This document shows positions 1-64,000 of a DNA stretch of 64,000 nt, in pieces (within the stretch, counting starts at the first letter, position 1; each line of letters opens with the position of its first letter). A program made the position numbers and the translations under genes. Below the pieces are notes generated by a model. It did no database searches. It saw only the letters and a list, made by a program, of their open reading frames with translations, and was not told the DNA's origin. Source of the stretch: a virus; the IMG/VR virus record IMGVR_UViG_3300020182_000010, positions 91,153-155,152 of that record. One strand, 5' to 3'.

Positions 1-178
1 GTTTTTTATTTAAGACTACTTCTCGTATATTATATTCATTGCCATGTAAAAATTCAGAGGTATGTAATACCCCCATCGCGGTTGGTTTATTTAACAATGT
101 CGAATAATGTTTTGCTAAACTGCGACTTGCAGTTCTTGGAAAACTGATTACCGCTATATTACAAATAGTGTTTGACAT
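1..178 (-). CDS. Sulfotransferase-like protein, N-terminal fragment
   Basis: This reading frame starts at an ATG at 176-178 and stays open to the left edge, giving about 59 residues. The start reads MSNTICNIAVISFPRTASRS. The hydrophobic strand followed by S-F-P-R-T-x-S-x-S resembles the PAPS-binding loop of sulfotransferases, which are common in marine phages. The ATG lies 1 nt after the stop of the SGNH-like gene, so the two are translated in series. The catalytic and 3'-phosphate-binding parts lie outside the window, so the family call rests on one motif. Another P-loop-like nucleotide-binding enzyme is the main alternative. Confidence 0.45.
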   Translation of the reverse strand, partial: MSNTICNIAVISFPRTASRSLAKHYSTLLNKPTAMGVLHTSEFLHGNEYNIREVVLNKK

Positions 179-179
179 A

Positions 180-908
180 TCATACATTTCCCGGTGATAC
201 GTTGTTTAAAATAAAAGAATCTACCGCATATTTTGCAAAATCTTCTCCGTAATGAAACGTATGTTTAGTAGAAAAATTGTTATCCTTCGCATAATTAGTA
301 TAGGCAAATGGTATGCTATTAAGTTTTAATATGCTTTTAGATTCTAGAATCCAAGACAAATCATTCCAATTTGAACTCAACGAATGACTTTTTTCTTCGT
401 CTGTGAGCATGGCATCTTCTATATCTGAAAACATAAACTTGCATGGTATGTTTTCATTGTCACAGAATGATTTTAATAATATTATATGTTGAAGTAAATC
501 TGTCTTATCTTGTATTGAATTTTGTATATATTCAAAATACCCAAGTGCTGCTGCATTGAAACCTCTACCCTGATTTAATTTTTCATACCATAAAGATAGT
601 GTAACTGGGTTATTAAGTGTTTTTAAAAACAATTCACGCCTATGTGAATATGTCATCATAAACACTGCGTTGGGTTTCTTGTTTTGTTGAATTAAGTTTT
701 TTATACCGATTATTGCTTTTCGTGTGATTAAATTGTTCGATGCTCCTGGTCTAGAATCGTTAATGACCGATACCCCCATCTGTTCTCCTAACAAAGCCGG
801 CCACGAAAATTTGCTGGTTTTGAAATTATCGACAAATGTATTACCCACATCATCCATTCCAAATCCTTGTGTATGAGAACAGCCACCTGCATATAAAATA
901 TTTTCCAT
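180..908 (-). CDS. SGNH/GDSL-hydrolase-like protein
   Basis: The protein has 242 residues. I start it at the ATG at 906-908 because that ATG shares a base with the stop of the upstream gene (TAATG); the longer frame begins 33 bp earlier. Near the N-terminus the block G-G-C-S-H-T-Q-G-F-G resembles SGNH block I with its nucleophilic Ser. The segment S-R-P-G-A-S-N-N resembles the block with Gly and Asn oxyanion residues. A His near the C-terminus (FHYGEDF) could complete the site. SGNH proteins act as esterases or acetyl transferases on glycans and lipids. Its place in a run of modification enzymes fits glycan or small-molecule tailoring, but the substrate is unknown. Confidence 0.5.
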   Translation of the reverse strand: MENILYAGGCSHTQGFGMDDVGNTFVDNFKTSKFSWPALLGEQMGVSVINDSRPGASNNLITRKAIIGIKNLIQQNKKPNAVFMMTYSHRRELFLKTLNNPVTLSLWYEKLNQGRGFNAAALGYFEYIQNSIQDKTDLLQHIILLKSFCDNENIPCKFMFSDIEDAMLTDEEKSHSLSSNWNDLSWILESKSILKLNSIPFAYTNYAKDNNFSTKHTFHYGEDFAKYAVDSFILNNVSPGNV

Positions 909-1501
909 TAGATATTTATTGTTTTTCGCATATTTTCGCATAGTCTTATATCTTTAAGTGGTATGTTTGGAATTTCAAAATGTAAGCACAATCTATTTTC
1001 CGTAACATTTTTAACGCCGTGCCGTTTTGTAATGTTTAGAAATGTCGGAGAAGTTATTTGATACTCTCCGCCATCTTCATAATACGTGATTGATGACGAA
1101 ATCCCCCACAGAGGTATCATCAGAACCGTATTTTTTCTATATGGAAAATCTGAGTGTGTAGGCACATCTTCTCCTGCATGTTGAAGGAAAAATGAAACAT
1201 CACCAATAACGATGTCGTTGTCAATTTTTTCTGATAACTGTTTTATTATATTTGCAATTGTAGGATGAGTAGTGTCACACTTTGAAACAAAATCAGTACG
1301 CTTGTGTACTTTTTTTGTAATCGATTTTTTCAAATCTTTAATCGTATTACCGATTACGTTTATCCCTGTATTTTTACAGAATTCATCTTTGTGATTAATA
1401 TCAATATCATCAATATCATATGATCGCAGAGAGTTATAATAAGAAGTTAATACATCCACATCATAATCTAAATCTATGACTAGTACTTCACGATCATCCA
1501 T
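908..1501 (-). CDS. 2-oxoglutarate/Fe(II) oxygenase-like protein
   Basis: The protein has 197 residues. The C-terminal half shows the facial-triad pattern of Fe(II)/2OG dioxygenases: H-S-D in PTHSDFPYRKN, a distal His in TKRHGVKN about 40 residues later, then an Arg in ENRLCLHFEIP for the 2OG carboxylate. Beta-strand-rich segments lie between, as in the double-stranded beta-helix fold. The N-terminal half is not recognised. The gene is coupled to the SGNH-like gene by a TAATG overlap and follows the TauD-like genes, so one transcript probably serves the cassette. The substrate is unknown. Confidence 0.5.
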   Translation of the reverse strand: MDDREVLVIDLDYDVDVLTSYYNSLRSYDIDDIDINHKDEFCKNTGINVIGNTIKDLKKSITKKVHKRTDFVSKCDTTHPTIANIIKQLSEKIDNDIVIGDVSFFLQHAGEDVPTHSDFPYRKNTVLMIPLWGISSSITYYEDGGEYQITSPTFLNITKRHGVKNVTENRLCLHFEIPNIPLKDIRLCENMRKTINI

Positions 1502-1570: not shown

Positions 1571-2248
1571 TTATATTATAAACTGTGTTCGCCATAACAT
1601 ACGTTCACCCTCGAATGCTACTCTTTTATGGATCATTTTTAGATTGTCCCAGATTAATATCTCGTTATCCTGCCATTCATGCATATATGCATTTGCTTCT
1701 ACCCATTCTTTAATAGGACGTAAGTCTATTTCATTATTGCGCAATGTGTTTATACTACAATATAGTATATCTTCACCAGTGACATGATGCTTAATATTAA
1801 ATGGTCGCTTTATTTTTTGTTTCTCTAGTAATCGTAGTTGTCTATCAGTAAAACATTCGCCATGCAAATGTATAGGAGGGTAGTATTCACCTATAGAATC
1901 TTTATACAGTTCTCTAAGTTCAAGTGGTGCATTACTCATATTACAGAACCAAGTTGGTGAAAGATGAGCATTTTTTACATTGTACAATATTGTACCAAAG
2001 TAGTTTCCTCTACCATAACTCCAATCATTATGCCAGTCTACATCGCCGGTATTGAACAATCCATTATTACTTAACTCTTGCACAGTACGATTGTCATTAA
2101 TCACATGCTTGTCTGTGATTAATGGTTTTCCTAATTCACTGACAATATACTCGAAATCTGTTAATGTTATTGAACTATTTAATGAGACTTTCACAAGACC
2201 ATTCGTCATAAGATCCTGCTTGATGGTCTCTATATTCAATTGTTTCAT
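1571..2248 (-). CDS. TauD/TfdA-family dioxygenase
   Basis: The protein has 225 residues. The metal site is complete: W-H-N-D-W near residue 75 gives the HxD pair. I-W-D-N-L-K-M-I-H-K-R near residue 205 gives the distal His, and the following R-M-L-W-R-T gives the 2OG-binding Arg. This is the layout of taurine/alpha-ketoglutarate dioxygenases, somewhat short for the family (usually 270-300). The ATG has a strong ribosome binding site (AAGGAAAAGG) and lies inside the 3' end of the upstream TauD-like gene, giving an overlap of 74 bp. A second ATG with AGGA at 2209 would shorten it by 13 residues. It looks like an active paralogue of its neighbour. Confidence 0.7.
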   Translation of the reverse strand: MKQLNIETIKQDLMTNGLVKVSLNSSITLTDFEYIVSELGKPLITDKHVINDNRTVQELSNNGLFNTGDVDWHNDWSYGRGNYFGTILYNVKNAHLSPTWFCNMSNAPLELRELYKDSIGEYYPPIHLHGECFTDRQLRLLEKQKIKRPFNIKHHVTGEDILYCSINTLRNNEIDLRPIKEWVEANAYMHEWQDNEILIWDNLKMIHKRVAFEGERMLWRTQFII

Positions 2249-3110
2249 CTACCTTTTCCTTTACTTCCTCGTCTCTATACCAAATACCTGCTCTCCACAA
2301 TTCGCGGTCGCCAGTATATGCTTCTCTTTTATGTAGACTGTGATGTTGGTCACTAAAACAGATATCATAATTATTCCATTCGTGTTCATACACATATTTT
2401 TCATCTTGTGTATGCTTTTTCAGTTTATAATATAAGTTATGCTGTGCATCTTTAGAAATTCCACTAAATCCTCGAATAACAGTCCAAGGAAAATATAGGC
2501 CTTCCTTATTATTGATAGGGTGAGTTGTGACTAAATCTTTTCTTGGTGTTTGTTTTTCGAAACTGTTTTGTCCATCTATATCTTTGAACTCCATCATAGT
2601 TTGTTCATCACTAAAAATTCTCTTGTAATACATTTGCTCAAGTTTCAACTTAGCATTATATGTTACGATTTTAGACTTTATGTTACGAAGAATGTCTTTT
2701 GTATTATCATCCAAATCTGCAAAAGCCGTTTGACTATCAGAGAAGAACGTATTTCCACCACTCTCTGCATTTTGATGCATGTACATAACTACAACATCAT
2801 CATGTCCCTTACGATTCATTCCAGCACTATGCCACTCTAATTCACCGTCTTCTTCACCGCTAAATAATCCATTTTTTCTAACTTTAATAAGTTCGCCATG
2901 TCCCGCGACATTTCCTTTGACTTTTGTATTTTGTGATACCACCTCACCAATTGTTTTATAAAATGATACTAGAGTTTCTGGTGGTACTGGATCATTATTT
3001 CTCACTACCACTACACGGCAATCACCTATTAGTTCTCTAATTTTATCTGCATCGTTTTCATAATCGCATTCAGTCACAATTGCTGCAAATTTATTTTTTT
3101 CTACAATCAT
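2175..3110 (-). CDS. TauD-like Fe/2OG enzyme with HxA site, possible halogenase
   Basis: The protein has 311 residues and the overall TauD layout: proximal metal motif near residue 93 (E-L-E-W-H-S-A-G), distal His in H-S-L-H-K-R near residue 260 and a following Arg (R-E-L-W-R-A-G). The aligned neighbour reads W-H-N-D-W, so here the iron-binding Asp is replaced by Ala. The codons read TGG CAT AGT GCT GGA. HxA or HxG in place of HxD is the hallmark of Fe/2OG radical halogenases such as SyrB2, where chloride takes the vacant iron position. The same change could instead mark a dead or non-iron paralogue. Its start overlaps the GNAT-like gene by 20 bp, so it is translationally linked to the radical SAM cassette. 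Confidence 0.6.
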   Translation of the reverse strand: MIVEKNKFAAIVTECDYENDADKIRELIGDCRVVVVRNNDPVPPETLVSFYKTIGEVVSQNTKVKGNVAGHGELIKVRKNGLFSGEEDGELEWHSAGMNRKGHDDVVVMYMHQNAESGGNTFFSDSQTAFADLDDNTKDILRNIKSKIVTYNAKLKLEQMYYKRIFSDEQTMMEFKDIDGQNSFEKQTPRKDLVTTHPINNKEGLYFPWTVIRGFSGISKDAQHNLYYKLKKHTQDEKYVYEHEWNNYDICFSDQHHSLHKREAYTGDRELWRAGIWYRDEEVKEKVDETIEYRDHQAGSYDEWSCESLIK

Positions 3111-3663
3111 TTTTCACTCTTTCTAACCCTATATTTATACAGTCTTTCGTCAATGGAAGCCAAGTTATATTTTGTTCACAACTACTATCTCCGTTGCATA
3201 CATAAAACTGGTCTGTTTCCATGATCCAGTCTGGCCATTGCATTTTGTTGTGCAAGAAGTATTTAAATCCATTAATACCGAACTTACCTTCTCTACTCAT
3301 AAATGCATAATCAAATTTAAGATTGCCAACTAATTCTATCTGCTGTTCAATCATTTGTTTTGTATATTCAATATCGTTAACCGCAAATCTATAATCCGAA
3401 GATTTAATAAATCTATTTAGAACCCTACATCCATTTCCATAAAATTGTTTTCTATGTAAAACAGAAGAAAACCCCAATATTTTACCAGATTGCGTTTCAT
3501 ACGTTGATGCTCCAACCCAATCATCAATGTTTAACCGCTTCATTGTATAATTATATTTTAGATTGTCTTGAAAATTTGATTGTGTAATAAACTGTTTTAT
3601 GCTTTCAATATATGATTCCCAATTATTATCGGCAGAATTTATTGTTTTAATAGTTAAATTCAT
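3091..3663 (-). CDS. GNAT-like acyltransferase (tentative)
   Basis: The protein has 190 residues. After an N-terminal helix-rich part, a run of strands (DDWVGASTYETQSGKILGFSSVL) followed by YGNGCRVLNRFI resembles the central sheet and pyrophosphate-binding loop of GNAT acyltransferases. The usual Q/R-x-x-G-x-G/A motif is not clean. A later segment (FDYAFMSREGKFGINGFKYFL) fits the last GNAT strands and helix. The gene overlaps its upstream neighbour (radical SAM) by 17 bp and its downstream neighbour (HxA enzyme) by 20 bp, so all three are tightly coupled. If the fold is right, it would acylate the product of the cassette. It could also be a family I do not know. Confidence 0.35.
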   Translation of the reverse strand: MNLTIKTINSADNNWESYIESIKQFITQSNFQDNLKYNYTMKRLNIDDWVGASTYETQSGKILGFSSVLHRKQFYGNGCRVLNRFIKSSDYRFAVNDIEYTKQMIEQQIELVGNLKFDYAFMSREGKFGINGFKYFLHNKMQWPDWIMETDQFYVCNGDSSCEQNITWLPLTKDCINIGLERVKNDCRKK

Positions 3664-4582
3664 TTTGCTTCACATGTTCAAAGAATGGCGCAATTGTCCA
3701 ATTCTGAGTCAACCGTCCTCTACTAGTGTTATCATGATCAATAACACCGTCATCGTCAATTTCCCAATCAATTAATCTTACGTATACTGGTCCTGCTTGT
3801 GTTTCATACTCAAACATCCAGGATGAAAGAGTTTCACCACTTTGTGGTCCTGCCGCAACAACTCCCGCTGCAGTCTTATATATGTCTTTTTCATTAATAC
3901 CTAGTTGTAATTTTGCTATATCTTTAAGTTCTTGTATATTATATGAAGAATTTTCCATATATCTACCAATTTGTCCCACACTTTTCATTCGAAGTACGGG
4001 ACGAATTCTATTATATGGCGGAGTAGTATTAAAATCTATTCCACTATTGCAGGCTAGTTCACCAAATAATTCTATTTGTCTTTTTAATGTATGTTCGTTT
4101 ACATTTTTTGCAATGATTGTACCAGTGTTCACTGGCAGTCTCGCATCAAAAACATTTTTCAATGCTCTAACTTTTACCGTTGACCAATTGCCTTCATCTA
4201 ATACTTTGTATACATTATCATCATCTGCGCCGTTCATACTAAGCAATAGTAATCTGAGGCCTGCATCTTTTAGATTGGATGTGTAACTCTTATTTGCTAA
4301 CTTTAGTCCGTTGGTAGTTAGACTAGGGCGATGTCCTAATCTTTTTGTAGTTGCAATAATCTCACATATATCCTCTCTCATAGTAGGTTCTGCTCCTATT
4401 AATCTGATATAGGTACGAGCAGGTAATCGTTTGATAATGTCAAATAATTTATTTTTATCAATATCTGGAATATCACGATTTGGAATATAACAGTTAGCAC
4501 ACTCCATGTTACATCGATGAGTTAGATCAACTACAATGTTACTGAATGTATTATTTTCTGGTTCTAATTCGTAATAATTCAT
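3647..4582 (-). CDS. Radical SAM enzyme
   Basis: The protein has 311 residues. The cluster motif C-N-M-E-C-A-N-C (CxxxCxxC) starts near residue 28 after the typical first strand (NIVVDLTHRC). L-I-G-A-E-P-T near residue 60 stands for the GGEP motif that holds SAM, and S-L-T-T-N-G-L is the next conserved strand. No C-terminal SPASM or Twitch cysteine cluster is visible, so it probably carries a single 4Fe-4S cluster and uses the 5'-deoxyadenosyl radical on a small molecule or peptide. It abuts the upstream small gene (4583-4918) with no gap. As the central enzyme of the cassette it may prepare the scaffold that the 2OG enzymes modify; this is inference from position. Confidence 0.75.
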   Translation of the reverse strand: MNYYELEPENNTFSNIVVDLTHRCNMECANCYIPNRDIPDIDKNKLFDIIKRLPARTYIRLIGAEPTMREDICEIIATTKRLGHRPSLTTNGLKLANKSYTSNLKDAGLRLLLLSMNGADDDNVYKVLDEGNWSTVKVRALKNVFDARLPVNTGTIIAKNVNEHTLKRQIELFGELACNSGIDFNTTPPYNRIRPVLRMKSVGQIGRYMENSSYNIQELKDIAKLQLGINEKDIYKTAAGVVAAGPQSGETLSSWMFEYETQAGPVYVRLIDWEIDDDGVIDHDNTSRGRLTQNWTIAPFFEHVKQNEFNY

Positions 4583-5399: not shown

Positions 5400-5668
5400 T
5401 GTGTAACTATTCTGTTGCTAGGTCAGTTACCAACCCCCACGTGCTTAAATTAAGCCGCTAATGCCATTTCTGGCGCATAATTGTTATTTGCAATTATAAA
5501 GTTTATTCGCGGTAACGGCGCTTATATCCCGGTAACTCCATTCATCTATCTTGTCAGTCGATCCTATTTCAGCCCCATAAGAAACACACTTATCTAAATG
5601 TGCTTATGGTGGAGCTGCGCGGTACTGCCCCACGGTCCTGTCCAATCATCAAATCACTTCAACGTTAC
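5400..5668 (-). ncRNA. ssrA: Permuted two-piece tmRNA (alphaproteobacterial type)
   Basis: On the minus strand the acceptor piece comes first and ends in C-A-G-C-U-C-C-A-C-C-A at 5607. A 30-nt spacer (5606-5577) follows, then the coding piece begins G-G-G-G-C-U-G at 5576. These two strands form a 7-bp acceptor stem whose third pair is G-U, the alanine identity element. GGAUCGAC follows, as in the tmRNA 5' domain. A 5-bp T-arm (CGUGG/CCGCG) lies in the acceptor piece. The tag frame starts at the resume codon GCA (5491) and encodes ANNNYAPEMALAA, then UAA at 5450-5452. The LAA end is a ClpXP-type degron. Downstream pairing (GUAACU/AGUUAC, 5403-5430) fits a pseudoknot. The 3' boundary of the coding piece is approximate. 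Confidence 0.9.
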
Positions 5669-5674
5669 ATTCTA

Positions 5675-5703
5675 TTTATAACATATTTTGATAGTGTTGT
5701 CAA
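5675..5703 (-). promoter_or_regulatory. Sigma70 promoter of tmRNA
   Basis: TTGACA (5703-5698), 17-nt spacer and TATAAA (5680-5675) give a near-consensus promoter with a predicted start near 5668, at the 5' end of the acceptor piece. The -35 box contains the TGA stop of the upstream hydrolase gene. The spacer lacks the GAATC found in many other promoters of this phage. Confidence 0.75.
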
Positions 5704-6278
5704 GTGTTGAATTTATTTTTAATAATTTCAACTACTCTGTCAGATAGAACTATCTCATAATGGTTTCTATCTACTTCTGCATATTCTATATCATTACGAC
5801 AAGTCATACTTTTACGTGTGACAATGCCATCATTTTCACCTGATATCCATGGTACATCGCCAACTGTTGTGACTACCTGAAGCCAATTACACGAAATATC
5901 AATATTACGACTACCTCTGATAAATCTACTATGTGTTGTAATGTCACTAAACATTTCATATCCAGAAAAGAATTTCATTGTTGCTCCCCAAACCGCAATC
6001 TCACTGCCATTAAATGGTGTTGCTAAACTAACAACATTTTTTATTGTATCAAATTCACTTTGTAAATATGTTGCATATACACCACCAAGACTATGTGCTA
6101 TTACAAAAAATTCATCATCTATATCATTCAAAGTTTTCATCATTATAGCAAGATTATCAACTGCCGCTGTATGTTTACTATAATTTAAATATATAGGATC
6201 TTTACAATCCAAAGATTTCTGAATGAAGGCGAAACTTCTTTCACTAGCAGTTGCCCCATGTATATACACTATTCTCAT
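5700..6278 (-). CDS. Alpha/beta-hydrolase (lipase/esterase-like)
   Basis: The protein has 192 residues. The triad is readable: nucleophile elbow I-A-H-S-L-G-G near residue 62, acid in E-N-D-G-I-V near residue 148, and His in N-H-Y-E-I near residue 172. The oxyanion region follows the first strand (IVYIHGATASERS). This is the short, PGAP1/lipase-like form of the fold. There is no signal peptide, so it acts in the cytoplasm unless exported at lysis. It follows the corrinoid protein gene by 4 nt and probably shares its late transcript. The substrate (lipid, acyl-thioester or host ester) cannot be read from the sequence. Confidence 0.75.
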   Translation of the reverse strand: MRIVYIHGATASERSFAFIQKSLDCKDPIYLNYSKHTAAVDNLAIMMKTLNDIDDEFFVIAHSLGGVYATYLQSEFDTIKNVVSLATPFNGSEIAVWGATMKFFSGYEMFSDITTHSRFIRGSRNIDISCNWLQVVTTVGDVPWISGENDGIVTRKSMTCRNDIEYAEVDRNHYEIVLSDRVVEIIKNKFNT

Positions 6279-6282
6279 TCAT

Positions 6283-6978
6283 TCAAGTCCTGACGCTGTT
6301 GTGCTTGCGATCCATAAACATCTTTGCTGTTTCAACTGCTACTGCTGCATCTCTACAATACGCATCTGCACCAATTGCTTTTCCAAATTCTTCATTTAGT
6401 GGTGCGCCGCCTACTAGTATTGTATAATCATCACGCATACCTTTTTCAATCATTACATCAATAACAACCTTCATATATGGCATTGTTGTTGTAAGTAATG
6501 CACTCATACCTAATATATCTGGATTATGTTCTTCGATTGCATCAAGATAAGCCTGAACATCGTTATTAATACCAATATCGTGTACATCAAATCCTGCACC
6601 TTCCATCATCATGCCAACTAAGTTCTTACCAATGTCATGTATATCACCTTTAACTGTGCCGATAACCATAGTTCCAACTTGTGGTGCGCCTGTTTCCGCA
6701 AGTAGAGGTTTAAGAATTGACATACCGCCTTTCATAGCGTTTGCTGCCAGTAGCACTTCAGGCACAAACAATATGCCATCTCTGAAGTCGATGCCAACAA
6801 TTGTCATACCAGCAACTAAAGATTCTGTTAGTACACGATATGGTTCCCATCCTCGCTCTAATAGAATATTTGTGCCTTCTTCTACCTCTTCTTTTAGACC
6901 ATCATACAAATCATCGCCCATTTGAATTACTAATTCTTCATCATTTAATTCAGAGAGTACAATATTATCATCTTCCAT
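6283..6978 (-). CDS. Cobalamin-binding methyltransferase corrinoid protein
   Basis: The protein has 231 residues. I start it at the ATG at 6976-6978, which has GAGAAG upstream; a GTG 12 nt earlier extends the frame. Residues 1-90 form the helical cap domain (LKEEVEEGTNILLERGW...FVPEVLLAANAMKGG). The Rossmann domain then carries G-D-I-H-D-I-G-K-N, the DxHxxG motif whose His ligates cobalt in base-off B12, followed by the usual SALLTTT and GGAPLNEEF segments. The length and both domains match free corrinoid proteins of the MtaC/MtbC/MttC type, partners of one-carbon methyltransferases. No methyltransferase partner is encoded in this window, so it may plug into a host system. It follows a late promoter. 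Confidence 0.85.
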   Translation of the reverse strand: MEDDNIVLSELNDEELVIQMGDDLYDGLKEEVEEGTNILLERGWEPYRVLTESLVAGMTIVGIDFRDGILFVPEVLLAANAMKGGMSILKPLLAETGAPQVGTMVIGTVKGDIHDIGKNLVGMMMEGAGFDVHDIGINNDVQAYLDAIEEHNPDILGMSALLTTTMPYMKVVIDVMIEKGMRDDYTILVGGAPLNEEFGKAIGADAYCRDAAVAVETAKMFMDRKHNSVRT

Positions 6979-7009
6979 TATTCTTCTCACTTGTATAGGT
7001 TAACATATC

Positions 7010-8238: not shown

Positions 8239-8390
8239 TCAGATTTCCAGATAGTCCATATACCATATGCAATTGCTGCATATGCAATTAAATCAACTGG
8301 TACAATGAGCATTGCAATTCCAGTTGCAACTAGTGCTGCACCGTCGAGTGTTGTACGTTCTTTTAGTCTATTTTTAATCCAATTAATCAT
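8235..8390 (-). CDS. Small membrane protein, 51 aa
   Basis: The short frame starts at an ATG at 8388-8390 and ends in TGA overlapping the next ATG. A basic N-terminus (MINWIKNRLKERTTLDG) is followed by about 28 hydrophobic residues (AALVATGIAMLIVPVDLIAYAAIAYGIW) and WKSE. It would span the inner membrane once, or twice as a tight hairpin. Similar LKERTTLDG proteins are, to my memory, widespread in marine T4-like phages. The start lies inside the end of the CDF gene (8-bp overlap), so it is coupled to it. Holin-like or membrane-regulator roles are possible. Confidence 0.65.
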   Translation of the reverse strand: MINWIKNRLKERTTLDGAALVATGIAMLIVPVDLIAYAAIAYGIWTIWKSE

Positions 8391-9312
8391 TTTTTTTCTC
8401 CTTTAATAATTTATTATAAAACAGTTCTTCATCTGGACAATTATTATGTTCAATTTGAATAGTTGTATGTACTATTTTATAATTATCGATTAATAGTTTC
8501 TTGGTATTATATATTGTATCATCACATTCGCCATCATCCAATATATTGATGTGCATAGCGGCTGAAATTTGTCCGCTTGCTAATTCCCATATATGTATAT
8601 GGTGAACATTACTAACATGATCGATATTTGTTATAATATCTTTTACTATAACATCAACATCAATATGTTCTGGTTTTCCAGTCATTAGTATTCTAATACA
8701 ATCTTTTAATAATTCCCAACCACTTTTTAATATCAAACTGGCCAGAACTACACTTATAATAGGATCAATATAATACCAATCAGTAAAATATATTACGATA
8801 CCACCTATAATGGCACCAACACTGCCTAAAATATCAAGTAAGATATGAAGTATCACTCCTCGCATATTAATATTATGACCATCATGGTGATGATGCACCA
8901 CTTTAAATAAAACCAAATTAACGATTAATCCAACAATAGCAATTGGTAACATCCAATATATATCAACATGCTCAGGATTTAGTATACGATAAATTGCTTC
9001 GTATATAATATATCCAAAAAGTCCAATCCACATCAGTGCATTTAAAAATGCTGCAATAACTTCCGCTCTCATAAATCCATATGAATATGTATCTGTTGGT
9101 GGTTTTCTGCCAATCCAAAATCCAAATACTGCAATAATCATTGCTAATGCATCAGTTGAAAGATGTAATGCATCACTCAATAACGCAAGTGAATTACTTA
9201 TATGTGCACCAAATAATTCGATAACAACAAATAATATTAAAATAAAAATGCTTATTTTTAATGCACGTTCTTCTTTGCCGGCTTTTCTGATATGATATTG
9301 ATTATGCTTCAT
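8383..9312 (-). CDS. Cation diffusion facilitator (zinc exporter-like)
   Basis: The protein has 309 residues with six predicted membrane helices. Metal-site signatures are in place: S-D-A-L-H-L-S-T-D-A on helix 2 and H-I-L-L-D-I-L-G-S on helix 5, giving the His/Asp pairs of the CzcD/ZitB zinc-type site. A His-rich loop (VVHHHHDGHN) sits between helices 4 and 5. The cytoplasmic C-terminal domain carries the expected HVSNVHHIHIWEL segment. The length matches bacterial CDF proteins, and no damage is visible. These proteins export Zn2+, Cd2+ or Co2+ by proton antiport. The stop of the epimerase gene overlaps its start (ATGA), so both come from one transcript. Confidence 0.9.
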   Translation of the reverse strand: MKHNQYHIRKAGKEERALKISIFILILFVVIELFGAHISNSLALLSDALHLSTDALAMIIAVFGFWIGRKPPTDTYSYGFMRAEVIAAFLNALMWIGLFGYIIYEAIYRILNPEHVDIYWMLPIAIVGLIVNLVLFKVVHHHHDGHNINMRGVILHILLDILGSVGAIIGGIVIYFTDWYYIDPIISVVLASLILKSGWELLKDCIRILMTGKPEHIDVDVIVKDIITNIDHVSNVHHIHIWELASGQISAAMHINILDDGECDDTIYNTKKLLIDNYKIVHTTIQIEHNNCPDEELFYNKLLKEKKND

Positions 9313-10226
9313 AAATTTTTCATCTTTGTATTATACAATTCTCTAATACCGTTTTCTATACTAATAGTTGGATTCCAACCAATAAGTTTTGTTGCTTTGG
9401 ATATGTCAGCAAGTGTTTCAGTTGCGTAACCTTTGGGTTTATCTTGATTCTCTACTTCTAAATTAGGAAAAAACTCACGTAAAACATTAACAACTTGATT
9501 TACAGAAAAATTTTCACCAGTTCCAACATTAAAAATCTCACTCTTTACTTTAGATTCCATACTTGCAATACATGCATGTGCAACATCACTAACATGAATA
9601 TAATCTCTTCTATATTCACCATCACCGTGAACTGTTAATGGTGTATTTTCATTAGCCATACGATAAAATCTACTGATCATCAATCCATTATTATCGTCTG
9701 ATGGTTGTTCATCACCATATATGGTAAAAAAACGTAATACATTATAATTTAGTCCAAAGACGTTTTTATATTGTTTACATAATTGTTCGCCAAATAATTT
9801 AGTCATTGCATAATAATTTAATGGATCCGGTTTATGAAATGGTTTATGTGGTATAGGATTATTCCCATATATACTTGATGAACTAGCATAAACAAATTTA
9901 CGAATACCTACAGCATGTGCGGCAGTTAATACGTTACGTGTACCAGTAACATTAATGTCAAAGTAAGTATCAGGATCAATAAAACTATCCGGTATTCGGG
10001 TCTTTGCTGCTAGATGTATAACATAATCTTTTCCGGCAGTTGCCATTACACACTTAGCTGCATTTTGTATATCACCTTTAATATACTTTACCATTTTAAA
10101 ATCAGTAGGCTTTTCTACAATATCTAAAACAGTTACTTCGTAACCTTTTCTTAGTAATTGTCTGACAACTTCTCTGCCTACGAAACCAGCGCCGCCAGTG
10201 ACAAGAACTTTACCTTTTGCTAACAT
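9309..10226 (-). CDS. NAD-dependent nucleotide-sugar epimerase/dehydratase
   Basis: The protein has 305 residues of the extended short-chain dehydrogenase type. V-T-G-G-A-G-F-V-G near the N-terminus is the NAD-binding GxxGxxG. A-S-S-S-I-Y-G and Y-A-M-T-K give the catalytic Ser and the YxxxK pair. RFFTIYG and the C-terminal F-N-V-G-T-G-E-N-F-S segment fit UDP-glucose/UDP-glucuronate 4-epimerases (GalE-like). It would act on UDP-sugars, most likely for surface polysaccharide or virion glycans. The exact sugar cannot be read. It is the first gene of the epimerase-CDF-small protein operon. Confidence 0.85.
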   Translation of the reverse strand: MLAKGKVLVTGGAGFVGREVVRQLLRKGYEVTVLDIVEKPTDFKMVKYIKGDIQNAAKCVMATAGKDYVIHLAAKTRIPDSFIDPDTYFDINVTGTRNVLTAAHAVGIRKFVYASSSSIYGNNPIPHKPFHKPDPLNYYAMTKLFGEQLCKQYKNVFGLNYNVLRFFTIYGDEQPSDDNNGLMISRFYRMANENTPLTVHGDGEYRRDYIHVSDVAHACIASMESKVKSEIFNVGTGENFSVNQVVNVLREFFPNLEVENQDKPKGYATETLADISKATKLIGWNPTISIENGIRELYNTKMKNL

Positions 10227-57225: not shown

Positions 57226-60200
57226 TTAGTCACTAGTATATTGATAGAATATAGTTCCTATTCTAACATACATTTTTGATCCATCTGATGATAATCTAGC
57301 ATTAGTTGAATATGGAACTCTCTTTGTTATACCTGCATATGAAATCGTAGTTATATCATATGCAGTTGTCATTGGAAGTTCATACATAGAATTACCCTCT
57401 GTGCCAAATGCATATAGTGCCGATCCATCTGAACTAAACTGAAGTGATTTAATTGAAGTATCAAGATCACCCAACCAATATGTATTACTAGTTCTATATT
57501 CAGTTGAAATATCAAATGGTGTAGCCAACACTCTTTCAACTATATATTCACCACTTGTATGTAACATAATCTTACCATCATATGACATTGTAAAATCTGT
57601 TATGGAACTGTTGGGTCTCATGAATCTCTTATATGTTCCAGATGTAGCAGTAATCGTACTAATATCAAATGGAGTACCAAAATCAAACTGATACATAGAG
57701 CAAGGATTCAAGTGATCTATTACATAAAACTTTGTCCCAGTAGAATTAATATGCATTCCTCTTATCTGGTCAGTAACAGCATTATAAACGCCTACATCAT
57801 CTCGTAAGTATGTTGTGTGTGTTAAGGATGCTGTACTTATATCATATGGAGTGGACAAAGTATGTTGTGTTACATATCCACCGTTTGAAGTATACATGTT
57901 AGTGCCATCATCACTGAAAATAAAGTTATCAGTATTACTAGATGGTTCATAACTTATACCAGTATCATACGTTAATCCTTGCAAGTCTGCTGCCCAGGTT
58001 ATCGAACTACCGGTTGCAGTCACAGGAGTGTAAGCACTTCCATCAATGCTATATACCTGGTAATTGTTACCAGTAGATGCGGTCAAAAGACTTCCATTAG
58101 CAGCAATGTGAATGGTACCAGTATTTCTAAAGAAATGTGAATTGCTGGGAGTTGTACTAATAGTATTGATATCCCAAGCGGTTGTCAATGCATACTCACG
58201 TAAAGTATCATCCTCTTGCGTATATGTATATACTTTTGCTCCATTTGAACTCATTTGGAAAGAAATTGGCGTGTATTGTCCTTCAAACACATGGGAAGTA
58301 CCTGTCCAATATGCAGTTGTAATATCCCATGGAGTTGCGCATATATATTGCTTTACAATTTGACCAGTTTCATAATATAAATTAAATCCTATACCATCTG
58401 GATTAAACTCAATACTTCTAAGTTGTGTAATTGAATTTACTGAAGAATTTACTGCTGTATATACTGCAGTACTAATATCAAATGGTGTTCCCAATATATA
58501 ATGATAGAGTTTATTATCATAATCGCCAATATACATATTTACACCATCTGATGACATCCACATACATTCAACATAATCAGTTAGATTATTGAAGGTTCCT
58601 GTGCTATACGAATTGCTCTTACTAGTTACATCATATGCAACACCCAAGTTATACTGGTGTATTACTTTAGTATTTCCATTACTCTGATATAATTTAGATC
58701 CATCATTCGAAATAAACAAAATGTGATCATATGTGCCTATACTAGTATGATTTTTATGTTGGTCTATTATATAATTAAAATCAAAGTTCCAATCTGACAT
58801 ATACCCAGATGGTGTGGTAACTGTAGGATACACTGCATCGGCAGTGCCATCAATTTTGTAAGTAACAATTGTGTTAGAAGTTATCCGTCCAGAAACTGAG
58901 TTTCCATCATCACTAATCCACATCCCATATCCTGTATTACGTTGTTCAGATTTTACACCATTATATACGGCAGTTGATAAATCAAAAGGAGTTGATAAAT
59001 CCAATTGATATGTTCTATCACCTCCAAGACCATAAACAAATATTTTTGTTCCATCATTTGATATATCAAGGTATGTTGGGGTGCTGTCCAATGTTCCTAC
59101 ATTAAATGTTACACCATTCCAATATATATTTTCTAGACTACCTGGGGTCGTCATAACATATTCGTATATAATATTAGTGTCATACATTATATACATTTTT
59201 GTAGAATCATATGAAAAAGCAAAATCATCAACATAATTATATATACCGTCATAATAGCCACTGATCTTTCTAATACTCGTTAAAGATGCTGGATCAAATG
59301 GAGTAGATAAGTCATATTCTTGAAGTTCGTGTCTAAAACTACCATAAGATGGTTGATATCCCCATCTGACATACATTTTAGTACCATCCGAATTTAATTT
59401 TGCTCTTTCTATAGCAGTGCCGCGATAATGACCTGTTGTTCCAGTTGTAGTGCTTGTAACAGTTGCGATATCATATGGGGTTGACATATTATGTGCTGTA
59501 ATACTAGCACCATTAGTAGTAATAAATTTATTACCATTATCTACAAATCCATTGTAACCACCGTTCATTGTTGTTGATGAATATGTCTTACTTGTGGTTG
59601 CAAATGGTACCGTGATATCACCTGCCCATGCTGGGCCAGCTACTGGAGTCAATACTACTGGTAGATCACCATTCATACTATAAAGAGTGAGTCGTTGTTC
59701 ATTGGTTGGTTGTACAACAACTCTGCTGCCATCATCTGATATCGCAGTAGCCGCTGCACCTGGGAAACTTGTAGATTTTACATCATTATATGAAATGGTT
59801 GATAAATCAAAGGGAGTTGATAAATCCAATTGGTATGTTACATCATCACCTCTGCCATATATACGCATTTTTGTTCCATCATTTGATATATTCATTCTAG
59901 TAACTGTGCTGTCCAATGTTCCTACATTAAATGTTACACCAGTCCAATATATATTTTCTAGACTACCTGGTACTACCATAACATATTCGTATATAATATT
60001 AGTTTCATACATTATATACATTTTTGTAGAATCATATGAAAAAGCAAAATCATCAATATAATCATATATACCTTGATAATAGCTATTGATCTTTCTAACA
60101 CTTGTCAACGATGCTGGATCAAATGGAGTAGATAAGTCATATTCTTGAAGTTCATGTCTAAAACTACCATAAGATGGTTGATATCCCCATCTGACATACA

Positions 60201-63200
60201 TTTTAGTACCATCCGAATTTAATTTTGCTATTTCTAGTTCTGTCCCGCGATAATGACCTGTTGTTCCAGTTGTACTACCTGTTATCGTTGTGATATCATA
60301 TGGGGTTGACATATTATGTGCTGTAATACTAGCACCACTAATAGTAATAAGTTTATTACCGCCATCCACAAAGCCTTGCAATCCATTATATGCATTCATT
60401 GAAATTTCCCATGTCTTTTTCAATGCAATTGGTGATGCTGTAATATCACCATTAAAGTTTGATGCTGGGCCAGCTACTGGAGTCAATACTACTGGTAGAT
60501 CGCCATTCATACTATAAAGAGTGAGTCGTTGTTCATTGTCTGGTTGTACAACAACTCTACTACCATCATCTGATATCGCAGTGGCAGTCGCATCTGGGAA
60601 ACTTGTAGATTTTACATCATTATATGAAATGGTTGATAAATCAAAAGGTGTTGCGAAATCCAATTGATATGTTACATCATCACCTCTGCCATATATACGC
60701 ATTTTTGTTCCATCATTTGATATATTCATTCTAGTAACTGTGCTGTCCAATGTTCCTACATTAAATGTTACACCAGTCCAATATATATTTTCTAGACTAC
60801 CTGGTACTACCATAACATATTCGTATATAATATTAGTTTCATACATTATATACATTTTTGTAGAATCATATGAAAAAGCAAAATCATCAATATAATCATA
60901 TATACCTTGATAATAGCTATTGATCTTTCTAACACTTGTCAACGATGCTGGATCAAATGGAGTAGATAAGTCATATTCTTGAAGTTCATGTCTAAAACTA
61001 CCATAAGATGGTTGATATCCCCATCTGACATACATTTTAGTACCATCCGAATTTAATTTTGCTATTTCTAGTTCTGTCCCGCGATAATGACCTGTTGTTC
61101 CAGTTGTACTACCTGTTATCGTTGTGATATCATATGGGGTTGACATATTATGTGCTGTAATACTAGCACCACTAATAGTAATAAGTTTATTACCGCTATC
61201 TACATAACTTTGCAATCCATTATATGCATTCATTGAAATTTCCCATGTCTTTTTCAATGCAATTGGCGATGCTGTAATATCACCATTAAAGTTTGATGCA
61301 CCAGCTGCTGGAGTCAATACTACTGGTAGATCACCATTCATACTATAAAGAGTGAGTCGTTGTTCATTGTCTGATTGTACAACAACTCTGCTGCCATCGT
61401 CTGATATTACAGTGACAGTCGCATCTGGGAAACTTGTAGATTTTACATTATTGTATGAAATGGTTGATAAATCAAAAGGAGTTGATAAATCCAATTGATA
61501 TGTTACATCATCACCTCTGCCATATATACGCATTTTTGTTCCATCATTTGATATATTCATTCTAGTAACTGTGCTGTCCAATGTTCCTACATTAAATGTT
61601 ACACCAGTCCAATATATATTTTCTAGACTACCTGGTACTACCATAACATATTCGTATATAATATTAGTTTCATACATTATATACATTTTTGTAGAATCAT
61701 ATGAAAAAGCAAAATCATCAATATAATCATATATACCTTGATAATAGCTATTGATCTTTCTAACACTTGTCAACGATGCTGGATCAAATGGAGTAGATAA
61801 GTCATATTCTTGAAGTTCATGTCTAAAACTACCATAAGATGGTTGATATCCCCATCTGACATACATTTTAGTACCATCCGAATTTAATTTTGCTATTTCT
61901 AGTTCTGTCCCGCGATAATGACCTGTTGTTCCAGTTGTACTACCTGTTATCGTTGTGATATCATATGGGGTTGACATATTATGTGCTGTAATACTAGCAC
62001 CACTAATAGTAATAAGTTTATTACCGCTATCTACATAACTTTGCAATCCATTATATGCATTCATTGAAATTTCCCATGTCTTTTTCAATGCAATTGGTGA
62101 TGCTGTAATATCACCATTAAAGTTTGATGCACCAGCTACTGGAGTCAATACTACTGGTAGATCGCCATTCATACTATAAAGAGTGAGTCGTTGTTCATTG
62201 TCTGGTTGTACAACAACTCTACTACCATCATCTGATATTGCAGTAGCCGTTGCACCTGGGAAACTTGTAGATTTTACACCATTATATACGGCAGTTGATA
62301 AATCATAAGGAGTTGATAAATCCAATTGATATGTTACATCATCACCTCTACCGTATACAAACATTTTTGTTCCATCATTTGATATATCAAGATGTGTTGG
62401 TGTGCTGTCCAATGTTCCTGCATTAAATGTTCCACCAGTCAAATATTTTCCACTAATAGAAAATGGTGTATTAAGACGATATTGATATATAATATTAGTG
62501 TTACTTAATATATATAATGAAGTTCCATCATATGATAAATCAAAATCATGCAAATATGATCCAGCCCAACCGCTAGTGATCTTTGCAACACTTGTTAGAG
62601 ATGCTGGATCAAATGGAGTAGATAAGTTATATTCTTGAAGTTCATGTCTAAAACTACCATAAGATGGTTGATATCCCCATCTGAGATACATTTTGGTACC
62701 ATCCGAATTTAATTTTGCTCTGCCTATGGGTGCGCTGCGTTGATGACTTGCTGATCCAGATGTAGTACCTGTTATCGTTGTGATATCATATGGGGTTGAC
62801 ATATTATGTGCTGTAATAGTAGTACCACTAGTAGTAATAAGTTTATTACCGCCATTCACAAAGCCTTGCAATCCATTATATCCATCCATTGGAATTTCCC
62901 ATGTCTTTTTTAATGCAATTGGCGATACTGTAATATCAATCGAAGATGTTGCCGAAGGAACAACACCCGTACTATATTGATGTAACTCACCATTTGAGCC
63001 AGCAATATACATTTTAGAACCATCTGTACTGAAAATTACGTCAGCTGGACTACCTTCCTCATTGCTCACACCAAAGCTAACATTGTCGTATGTCGCAGTA
63101 CTTATATCAAAAGCACTGGTCAAGCTGAATTGCTGAACCGTGTCCAGGTTGTTACCAACCATATACATCTTAGTTCCGTCAGGGTTAAACTCTATACTAA

Positions 63201-64000
63201 AAGGAGATTGTTCAATAGAATCGACATTAATGGAAATACTATTGTATGACGCTGTGCTTACATCAAAACCGGTGGATAGTGTGTATTGAAATATATCTTT
63301 AGTGCCAAACCCAACAACATACATCTTAGTACCATCAATGTTGAAAGTTATGTCACTAGCAAGACTAGCCTGACTAGATATACCAAAGAAGACATTACTG
63401 TATGCAATTGTGCTTAAATCATAAGCAGTAGACAAACCATATTGATATACTTTGCCGTCACTGAACCCAACAATATACAACTTAGTGCCATCATCATTGA
63501 AATCAAATCCATAAGTAGAAGATTCTTGTGCAGATGAATCAAAGCTAACATTATTGTATGTGGATGTACTTAGATCGAAGGCAGTGGAAAGATCATACTC
63601 GTATATAACACCTGAAGAGTCCAGCATATACATCTTAGTGCCATTATCGTTGAATTTCATACCAGTAGGATAGTTGCTCTGGGAAACTACACTAAGAGTA
63701 ATATTGTCATATGACACCAGAGACATATCAGCAGTCCAACCTGCTGTTGCGGTAGGTGCCGTGTGACCCATATCCGGTACATCATTGGCATCAAAATAAT
63801 ATGTACGATACGTATCATCATTTCCTCTGAATACTATGTTATCTCCCGCTTGTGAAACGAATGCTTTTGTATGTGTTTCGTTTAAATTATCAATTCCATA
63901 GTCATTATTATATGTCGTAGTAGATATATCATTTGGAGTTCCCATAATATACTGATGAAGTTCTTCTATACCTAAACTATTTTCTCCATATACGTTAAAT
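57226..64000 (-). CDS. Giant beta-propeller tail adhesin, 5' end beyond window
   Basis: The frame is open to the right edge: 18 more residues (FNVYGENSLGIEELHQYI) precede the first Met, and ELHQYI matches the repeat motif, so the Met is not the start. At least 2,257 residues are present. The protein is built of about 45-residue propeller-blade motifs of the type F-N-x-D-G-T-K-M-Y-x-x-x...I-Y-E-Y-D-L-S-T-x-x-D-x-S-T-x-x-Y. A five-unit superrepeat of about 277 residues lies in the middle. There is no signal peptide in view. Size and position beside other fibre genes suggest a host-binding tail protein. Confidence 0.75.
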   Translation of the reverse strand, partial: FNVYGENSLGIEELHQYIMGTPNDISTTTYNNDYGIDNLNETHTKAFVSQAGDNIVFRGNDDTYRTYYFDANDVPDMGHTAPTATAGWTADMSLVSYDNITLSVVSQSNYPTGMKFNDNGTKMYMLDSSGVIYEYDLSTAFDLSTSTYNNVSFDSSAQESSTYGFDFNDDGTKLYIVGFSDGKVYQYGLSTAYDLSTIAYSNVFFGISSQASLASDITFNIDGTKMYVVGFGTKDIFQYTLSTGFDVSTASYNSISINVDSIEQSPFSIEFNPDGTKMYMVGNNLDTVQQFSLTSAFDISTATYDNVSFGVSNEEGSPADVIFSTDGSKMYIAGSNGELHQYSTGVVPSATSSIDITVSPIALKKTWEIPMDGYNGLQGFVNGGNKLITTSGTTITAHNMSTPYDITTITGTTSGSASHQRSAPIGRAKLNSDGTKMYLRWGYQPSYGSFRHELQEYNLSTPFDPASLTSVAKITSGWAGSYLHDFDLSYDGTSLYILSNTNIIYQYRLNTPFSISGKYLTGGTFNAGTLDSTPTHLDISNDGTKMFVYGRGDDVTYQLDLSTPYDLSTAVYNGVKSTSFPGATATAISDDGSRVVVQPDNEQRLTLYSMNGDLPVVLTPVAGASNFNGDITASPIALKKTWEISMNAYNGLQSYVDSGNKLITISGASITAHNMSTPYDITTITGSTTGTTGHYRGTELEIAKLNSDGTKMYVRWGYQPSYGSFRHELQEYDLSTPFDPASLTSVRKINSYYQGIYDYIDDFAFSYDSTKMYIMYETNIIYEYVMVVPGSLENIYWTGVTFNVGTLDSTVTRMNISNDGTKMRIYGRGDDVTYQLDLSTPFDLSTISYNNVKSTSFPDATVTVISDDGSRVVVQSDNEQRLTLYSMNGDLPVVLTPAAGASNFNGDITASPIALKKTWEISMNAYNGLQSYVDSGNKLITISGASITAHNMSTPYDITTITGSTTGTTGHYRGTELEIAKLNSDGTKMYVRWGYQPSYGSFRHELQEYDLSTPFDPASLTSVRKINSYYQGIYDYIDDFAFSYDSTKMYIMYETNIIYEYVMVVPGSLENIYWTGVTFNVGTLDSTVTRMNISNDGTKMRIYGRGDDVTYQLDFATPFDLSTISYNDVKSTSFPDATATAISDDGSRVVVQPDNEQRLTLYSMNGDLPVVLTPVAGPASNFNGDITASPIALKKTWEISMNAYNGLQGFVDGGNKLITISGASITAHNMSTPYDITTITGSTTGTTGHYRGTELEIAKLNSDGTKMYVRWGYQPSYGSFRHELQEYDLSTPFDPASLTSVRKINSYYQGIYDYIDDFAFSYDSTKMYIMYETNIIYEYVMVVPGSLENIYWTGVTFNVGTLDSTVTRMNISNDGTKMRIYGRGDDVTYQLDLSTPFDLSTISYNDVKSTSFPGAAATAISDDGSRVVVQPTNEQRLTLYSMNGDLPVVLTPVAGPAWAGDITVPFATTSKTYSSTTMNGGYNGFVDNGNKFITTNGASITAHNMSTPYDIATVTSTTTGTTGHYRGTAIERAKLNSDGTKMYVRWGYQPSYGSFRHELQEYDLSTPFDPASLTSIRKISGYYDGIYNYVDDFAFSYDSTKMYIMYDTNIIYEYVMTTPGSLENIYWNGVTFNVGTLDSTPTYLDISNDGTKIFVYGLGGDRTYQLDLSTPFDLSTAVYNGVKSEQRNTGYGMWISDDGNSVSGRITSNTIVTYKIDGTADAVYPTVTTPSGYMSDWNFDFNYIIDQHKNHTSIGTYDHILFISNDGSKLYQSNGNTKVIHQYNLGVAYDVTSKSNSYSTGTFNNLTDYVECMWMSSDGVNMYIGDYDNKLYHYILGTPFDISTAVYTAVNSSVNSITQLRSIEFNPDGIGFNLYYETGQIVKQYICATPWDITTAYWTGTSHVFEGQYTPISFQMSSNGAKVYTYTQEDDTLREYALTTAWDINTISTTPSNSHFFRNTGTIHIAANGSLLTASTGNNYQVYSIDGSAYTPVTATGSSITWAADLQGLTYDTGISYEPSSNTDNFIFSDDGTNMYTSNGGYVTQHTLSTPYDISTASLTHTTYLRDDVGVYNAVTDQIRGMHINSTGTKFYVIDHLNPCSMYQFDFGTPFDISTITATSGTYKRFMRPNSSITDFTMSYDGKIMLHTSGEYIVERVLATPFDISTEYRTSNTYWLGDLDTSIKSLQFSSDGSALYAFGTEGNSMYELPMTTAYDITTISYAGITKRVPYSTNARLSSDGSKMYVRIGTIFYQYTSD
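58800..62920 (-). repeat. Five-unit tandem superrepeat, about 831 bp per unit
   Basis: The segment holding ACACCAGTCC or a close variant starts near 62431, 61600, 60769, 59935 and 59110, giving steps of 831, 831, 834 and 825 bp, all multiples of 3. The three inner copies (about 59.65-62.1 kb) are nearly identical, including silent positions; the outer ones differ more. This shows recent duplication or gene conversion within the adhesin gene. Confidence 0.9.

Follow-up and report, generated by a model that had tools for sequence, protein, structure and literature searches.

Does a phage protein of the TauD/TfdA fold, in which alanine takes the place of the iron-binding aspartate, act as a radical halogenase? 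The question was raised by the initial annotation of a 64,000-nucleotide stretch of DNA (the window), which makes up the final 64 kb of an IMG/VR virus record of 155 kb; T4-type genes, including those for ribonucleotide reductase subunits and recombinase- and terminase-like ORFs, were recognized in this record by reading. Within the Fe/2OG superfamily, TauD serves as the model hydroxylase. Replacement of Asp/Glu by Ala/Gly is the accepted signature of Fe/2OG halogenases (PMC8407142, PMC12346261, PMC12871659), whose motif combines HxG/A with the distal His and the 2OG Arg (PMC8407142, PMC12871659), and restoring the acid in SyrB2 abolishes halogenation (PMC4019311). Searches with the HXA/G motif also yield false positives (PMC12871659).

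The gene occupies positions 2175..3110 on the minus strand of the window, starts with ATG and encodes a protein of 311 aa. The product matched Pfam TauD (PF02668) with an E-value of 5e-31 and 109 bits at a curated cut-off of 27; this was its sole Pfam match, Asp_Arg_Hydrox (PF05118) giving none. As annotated initially, the proximal motif reads W93-H94-S95-A96-G97, encoded on the minus strand by CAT (H94, 2829-2831), AGT and GCT (A96, 2823-2825), with Ala at the Asp position of the hydroxylase HxD, so that the facial triad HxD...H of hydroxylases is absent from the sequence and from the alignment. The alignment with E. coli TauD (WHTD) and five bacterial plasmid TauDs had no gap at position 96 and was unambiguous there; the cellular TauDs examined from Streptomyces, Paraburkholderia, Caballeronia and Pseudanabaena had H-x-D. 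The other residues of interest were located by the same means, all on the minus strand: T121 (2748-2750), H260 (2331-2333), R269 (2304-2306) and R273 (2292-2294). The distal His and the 2OG Arg (H260 and R269, both invariant) are kept, in agreement with the initial annotation, as are both iron-binding His, and the acid is missing; judged from the alignment, the Fe/2OG site appears complete apart from the carboxylate.

Scans with peptides not including residue 96 (DGELEW, MNRxGHD and KxGLxxPW) recovered HxA relatives from 19 IMG/VR contigs besides the window, giving 20 records with 18 different proteins, the window's included. The relatives were 49-82% identical to the window protein, every one of them having the motif [WY]-H-[SC]-A-G-M, and A96 was fixed in all 18 different proteins, with GCA, GCT and GCC as its codons. 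Since all homologues were HxA and three Ala codons were in use, a local mutation or sequencing error was ruled out as the source of A96; the HxD homologues, regarded in the initial annotation as counter-evidence, did not occur among the close relatives. For gene pairs with unsaturated synonymous sites, to which the calculation was confined, dN/dS ranged from 0.04 to 0.06, as low as in the HxD TauD and radical SAM genes discussed below, which points to strong purifying selection (dN/dS about 0.05). The marks of an inactive pseudo-oxygenase, i.e. drift of catalytic residues and relaxed selection, were not found, and the protein does not look like a decayed enzyme, because no variation was seen at either His, at the Thr, at the 2OG Arg or at the second Arg. 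No homologue was detected by tblastn in 50,697 isolated phages at 1e-5, and two short-peptide scans of 84,980 GTDB species genomes, which distant relatives would escape, returned no relative; a bacterial origin of the gene as an AMG was rejected on the latter result, with the same limit. The plasmid matches were distant TauDs, and those examined had HxD.

The maximum-likelihood phylogeny of phage TauD-like proteins, which had been recommended initially, resolved three clades: HxA (100/100), HSN (98/82) and HxD (99/95). HxA and HSN were joined as sister clades at 99/95, while the position of the root is unsure, since branches are long and the only outgroup is distant. Column 96 was A in 18/18 HxA, D in 32/32 HxD and N in 62/62 HSN proteins, the last count being partly selected, as one of two search peptides contains WHSN. 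Seven residues (H94, T121, D254, H260, R262, R269 and R273) were invariant over the three clades in the 72 rows aligned. The gene next door indeed encodes W-H-N-D-W and keeps the His and Args, as first described; in the tree it falls into another clade and did not give rise to HxA. A recent duplication of this neighbour was rejected as the source of HxA, the two proteins lying in separate clades with about 25% identity.

The HSN clade, noted at L133, L134, L138, L144-L147 and L151-L227, was confirmed in 408 IMG/VR stretches (again partly selected by the WHSN peptide), and its members were present in isolated phages, namely the cyanophages P-HM1, P-HM2 and MED4-213 and the pelagiphage Mosig. 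The WHSN proteins of these four phages share GMF-x-DGEL-x-WHS and the other Fe/2OG residues with the HxA protein, whereas they have Asn for Ala, are often longer and, in the inspected loci, lack the four-gene cassette described below. In L133, L134 and L138 the WHSN genes adjoin genes for an HxD TauD, a fatty-acid-desaturase-like protein, a radical SAM enzyme and an ATP-grasp protein. The WHSN TauD-like proteins of these phages correspond to T4-GC447, and those of P-HM1 and P-HM2 were recorded only as taurine catabolism dioxygenase (PMC3037559); the open-access literature yielded no description of either phage clade, HxA or HSN, which is weak evidence of novelty. By alignment, the iron-site acid appears to be missing in both clades. 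Because the HSN sister clade is also acid-free, loss of the acid extends to a wider group of phage proteins and does not have to signify halogenation. In Mosig (L146, 51499-62095) a biosynthetic-looking cluster with a WHSN TauD, a fatty acid desaturase, an aminotransferase, a nitroreductase, a methylase and two Asp_Arg_Hydrox proteins was observed directly next to the tail-fibre genes.

The HxA gene was part of a cassette with the order radical SAM - partner - TauD(HxA) - TauD(HxD) on one strand in 20/20 records, and none was seen outside the cassette in these records, whose carriers are marine T4-like phages. The cassette genes mostly overlapped or abutted, with an extra gene between both TauDs in a few records. 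In the window, where all four genes are on the minus strand, the overlap is 17 nt between the radical SAM gene (3647..4582) and the partner gene (3091..3663), 20 nt between the partner and HxA genes, and 74 nt between the HxA gene and the HxD TauD gene (1571..2248). The radical SAM enzyme (311 aa, CxxxCxxC, MoaA-like in its N-terminal half) was identified by Pfam Radical_SAM at 1e-14 and by alignment A6, its best NCBIfam matches being far under the cut-offs. The 190-aa partner, present in 20/20 records and 160-215 aa long across them, gave no match of note in Pfam, NCBIfam, PHROGs and PDB searches; by eye it looks GNAT-like, without database support. The second TauD-like enzyme (225 aa) has the canonical WHND triad and matched PF02668 at 7.7e-15. 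Among 80 radical SAM loci, the full cassette was present in 18, the HxD TauD without HxA in 15 and the partner alone in 2, while in 45 (17 of them incomplete) none of the other cassette genes was near.

More Fe/2OG-type oxygenases were located around the cassette, at positions 2-1501 of the window and within the 15 kb that adjoin it on the left, and many of them recur beside HxA cassettes in other contigs. The product of 908..1501 (minus strand), an optional neighbour, is a probable further Fe/2OG oxygenase by its HSD...H...R read by eye; it had no Pfam match, and homologues (family F16) were present in three other HxA loci. Extra oxygenases at L229 12684-15340 (record 88683-91339) include one Asp_Arg_Hydrox recognized by Pfam and others recognized by eye. 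Also on the minus strand are another optional neighbour (180..941), SGNH-hydrolase-like by eye without database support (Pfam DUF6071 at 0.0098, under the cut-off), and the start of a gene for a 151-aa protein (2..187), which is complete in L229, has no Pfam support and recurs beside the cassette in 11/19 loci.

The AlphaFold2 model of the HxA protein, built on the 72-row alignment, reached a pLDDT of 85.5 and a pTM of 0.84. Its best PDB matches in Foldseek were the TauD-type dioxygenases, AAD-1, RdpA, FT_T and PlaO1, with a TM of 0.6-0.7 and 13-20% identity to TauD/TfdA structures; the structure prediction advised initially gave a TauD/AAD-1/RdpA fold, and known halogenases were absent from the best 50 matches. 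A PDB profile search at E<=1 recovered essentially TauD/TfdA-type oxygenases only, and no sequence relationship to the solved halogenases (SyrB2, WelO5, BesD, AdeV and DAH types) was seen at this threshold. The TauD/TfdA hydroxylases (AAD-1, AAD-2, RdpA, TauD, PlaO1) have the fold, PF02668 and the His/Thr/Arg site in common with the HxA protein and differ from it by their HxD. The radical halogenases of the BesD family, SyrB2, WelO5, DAH and AdeV share with it the HxG/A, the distal His and the 2OG Arg, with no detectable sequence kinship to a solved member at E<=1. Such remoteness and the presence of an HxD neighbour are compatible with a halogenase, because halogenases have emerged near hydroxylases: hydroxylases, rather than SyrB2, are the nearer relatives of BesD (PMC8407142), and DAH adjoins an HxD paralogue (PMC12346261).

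Starting from the conserved residues, the conserved cassette and the predicted fold, we infer activity, halide, substrate and pathway as follows. The single most likely reading, held at somewhat less than even confidence, is a radical halogenase that modifies a small molecule made by the phage. The HxA protein would be catalytically competent, a TauD-fold member of the Fe(II)/2OG enzymes whose iron is held by two His, H94 and H260, and whose 2OG is held by R269 and T121. A halide would fill the place vacated by Asp at A96, O2 and 2OG would generate a cis-halo-oxo-Fe(IV) species abstracting a substrate hydrogen, and the substrate radical would be captured by the halide in chemistry of the SyrB2/BesD type. 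A small anionic molecule in free form, e.g. an amino acid or a cassette-made intermediate, is the probable substrate, because R273, whose TauD/TfdA counterpart is a ligand of the substrate anion, is kept and no PP-binding carrier domain is present in the 155-kb record, which may be incomplete. A SyrB2-like carrier-tethered substrate was disfavoured on the same absence. The enzyme may perform an optional tailoring step in a phage pathway that depends on the HxD TauD together with the radical SAM enzyme and its partner protein, because HxA was found only with the full set, yet 15/80 radical SAM loci have HxD but no HxA. Stated in full, our tentative proposal is a phage-encoded radical halogenase on a TauD/TfdA scaffold, with an origin apart from the halogenase families known so far, which together with the radical SAM enzyme and the HxD TauD would yield a halogenated small molecule during infection.

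Several results weaken the halogenase reading: the solved halogenases were unmatched by sequence (E<=1) and in the best 50 folds, the Asn of the sister clade suggests that the missing acid may reflect something besides halide binding, and a halogenated product is not indicated by any known substrate or by a gene for self-resistance or export. The initial proposal was supported in part: the gene is a genuine phage gene, adjoins a radical SAM gene and encodes a conserved HxA in an Fe/2OG site that lacks nothing else. A non-halogenating AspH-like oxygenase follows close behind the halogenase and is nearly as likely, given that false positives arise when the motif is taken by itself and that the HSN sister clade shows the acid to be dispensable in this lineage. 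It would be a two-His Fe/2OG oxygenase with water in the Asp site that hydroxylates, desaturates or cyclises its substrate. The precedent is AspH (aspartate/asparagine beta-hydroxylase), which has a two-His iron site without carboxylate, with water in the vacant place, and hydroxylates without halogenating (PMC13168262); by sequence, the HxA protein also has two His and no acid, although AspH is a PF05118 and not a PF02668 protein. The retention of all remaining Fe/2OG residues agrees with such an enzyme, and an HSN sister that is acid-free over hundreds of phage loci suggests a lineage working without a carboxylate ligand; however, position 96 is solely Ala clade-wide, i.e. one of the two halogenase residues, with no mixture. 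We know of no TauD-fold two-His oxygenase that is non-halogenating.

The constant company of the HxD enzyme, encoded alongside in 20/20 records and often overlapping, could also mean that the HxA protein is a non-catalytic pseudoenzyme or a regulatory subunit pairing with it. This is improbable, as the other Fe- and 2OG-binding residues are invariant and dN/dS is equally low in the genes for the HxD TauD and the radical SAM enzyme, and the HxD enzyme was found without HxA in 15 of the 80 radical SAM loci. Even less credible is a normal hydroxylase with another acid, such as E92 (two residues ahead of H94) or E90, as the Asp substitute: position 92 is Glu in 18/18 HxA proteins and mostly Leu in HSN, but HxD proteins with the Asp ligand still present have D/E there in 21 of 32 cases, and E90 is common to HSN, with D/E in most HxD proteins. 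Neither residue looks compensatory, because relatives have D/E at the same positions.

If the halogenase reading is true, marine phages produce a halogenated metabolite and the HSN sister clade represents another non-carboxylate iron site. The open-access literature yielded no account of an Fe/2OG halogenase from a phage; known viral halogenases are flavin-dependent according to PMC10452541, which cites 2019 work on marine viral halogenases and counts them in 20/153 cyanophages. They differ from the HxA protein in their flavin chemistry and protein family, and no Trp_halogenase domain is present in the 155-kb record. In cyanophages, a cluster predicted to make a halogenated metabolite contains 2OG oxygenases next to an amino acid halogenase (PMC7824862), and resembles the proposal for the HxA locus in phage-encoded halogenation and in having several 2OG oxygenases together. 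The HxA, HxN and HxD clades of related phages form a natural series on a TauD scaffold for the choice between hydroxylation and halogenation. Even without halogenation, the rule that HxA/G denotes a halogenase can be put to a direct test with two carboxylate-free phage clades, of which one is very common.

Several other features of the window, all on the minus strand, were recorded. A permuted tmRNA of alphaproteobacterial type is located at 5400-5707 (Rfam RF01849, 126 bits; ARAGORN tag ANNNYAPEMALAA), and its type suggests an alphaproteobacterial host. The gene at 6283-6990, which adjoins the tmRNA and an alpha/beta hydrolase-like gene, encodes a corrinoid (B12-binding) protein with both Pfam B12-binding domains, MtbC/MetH-like and unusual in a phage. 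Genes for a cation-efflux protein (zinc transporter) and an NAD-dependent epimerase at 8383-10226 are likely host-derived metabolic genes. Finally, a 2239-aa protein at the record end (57226-63945) contains long near-identical repeats of the DGTKMYV/DISTATY type.
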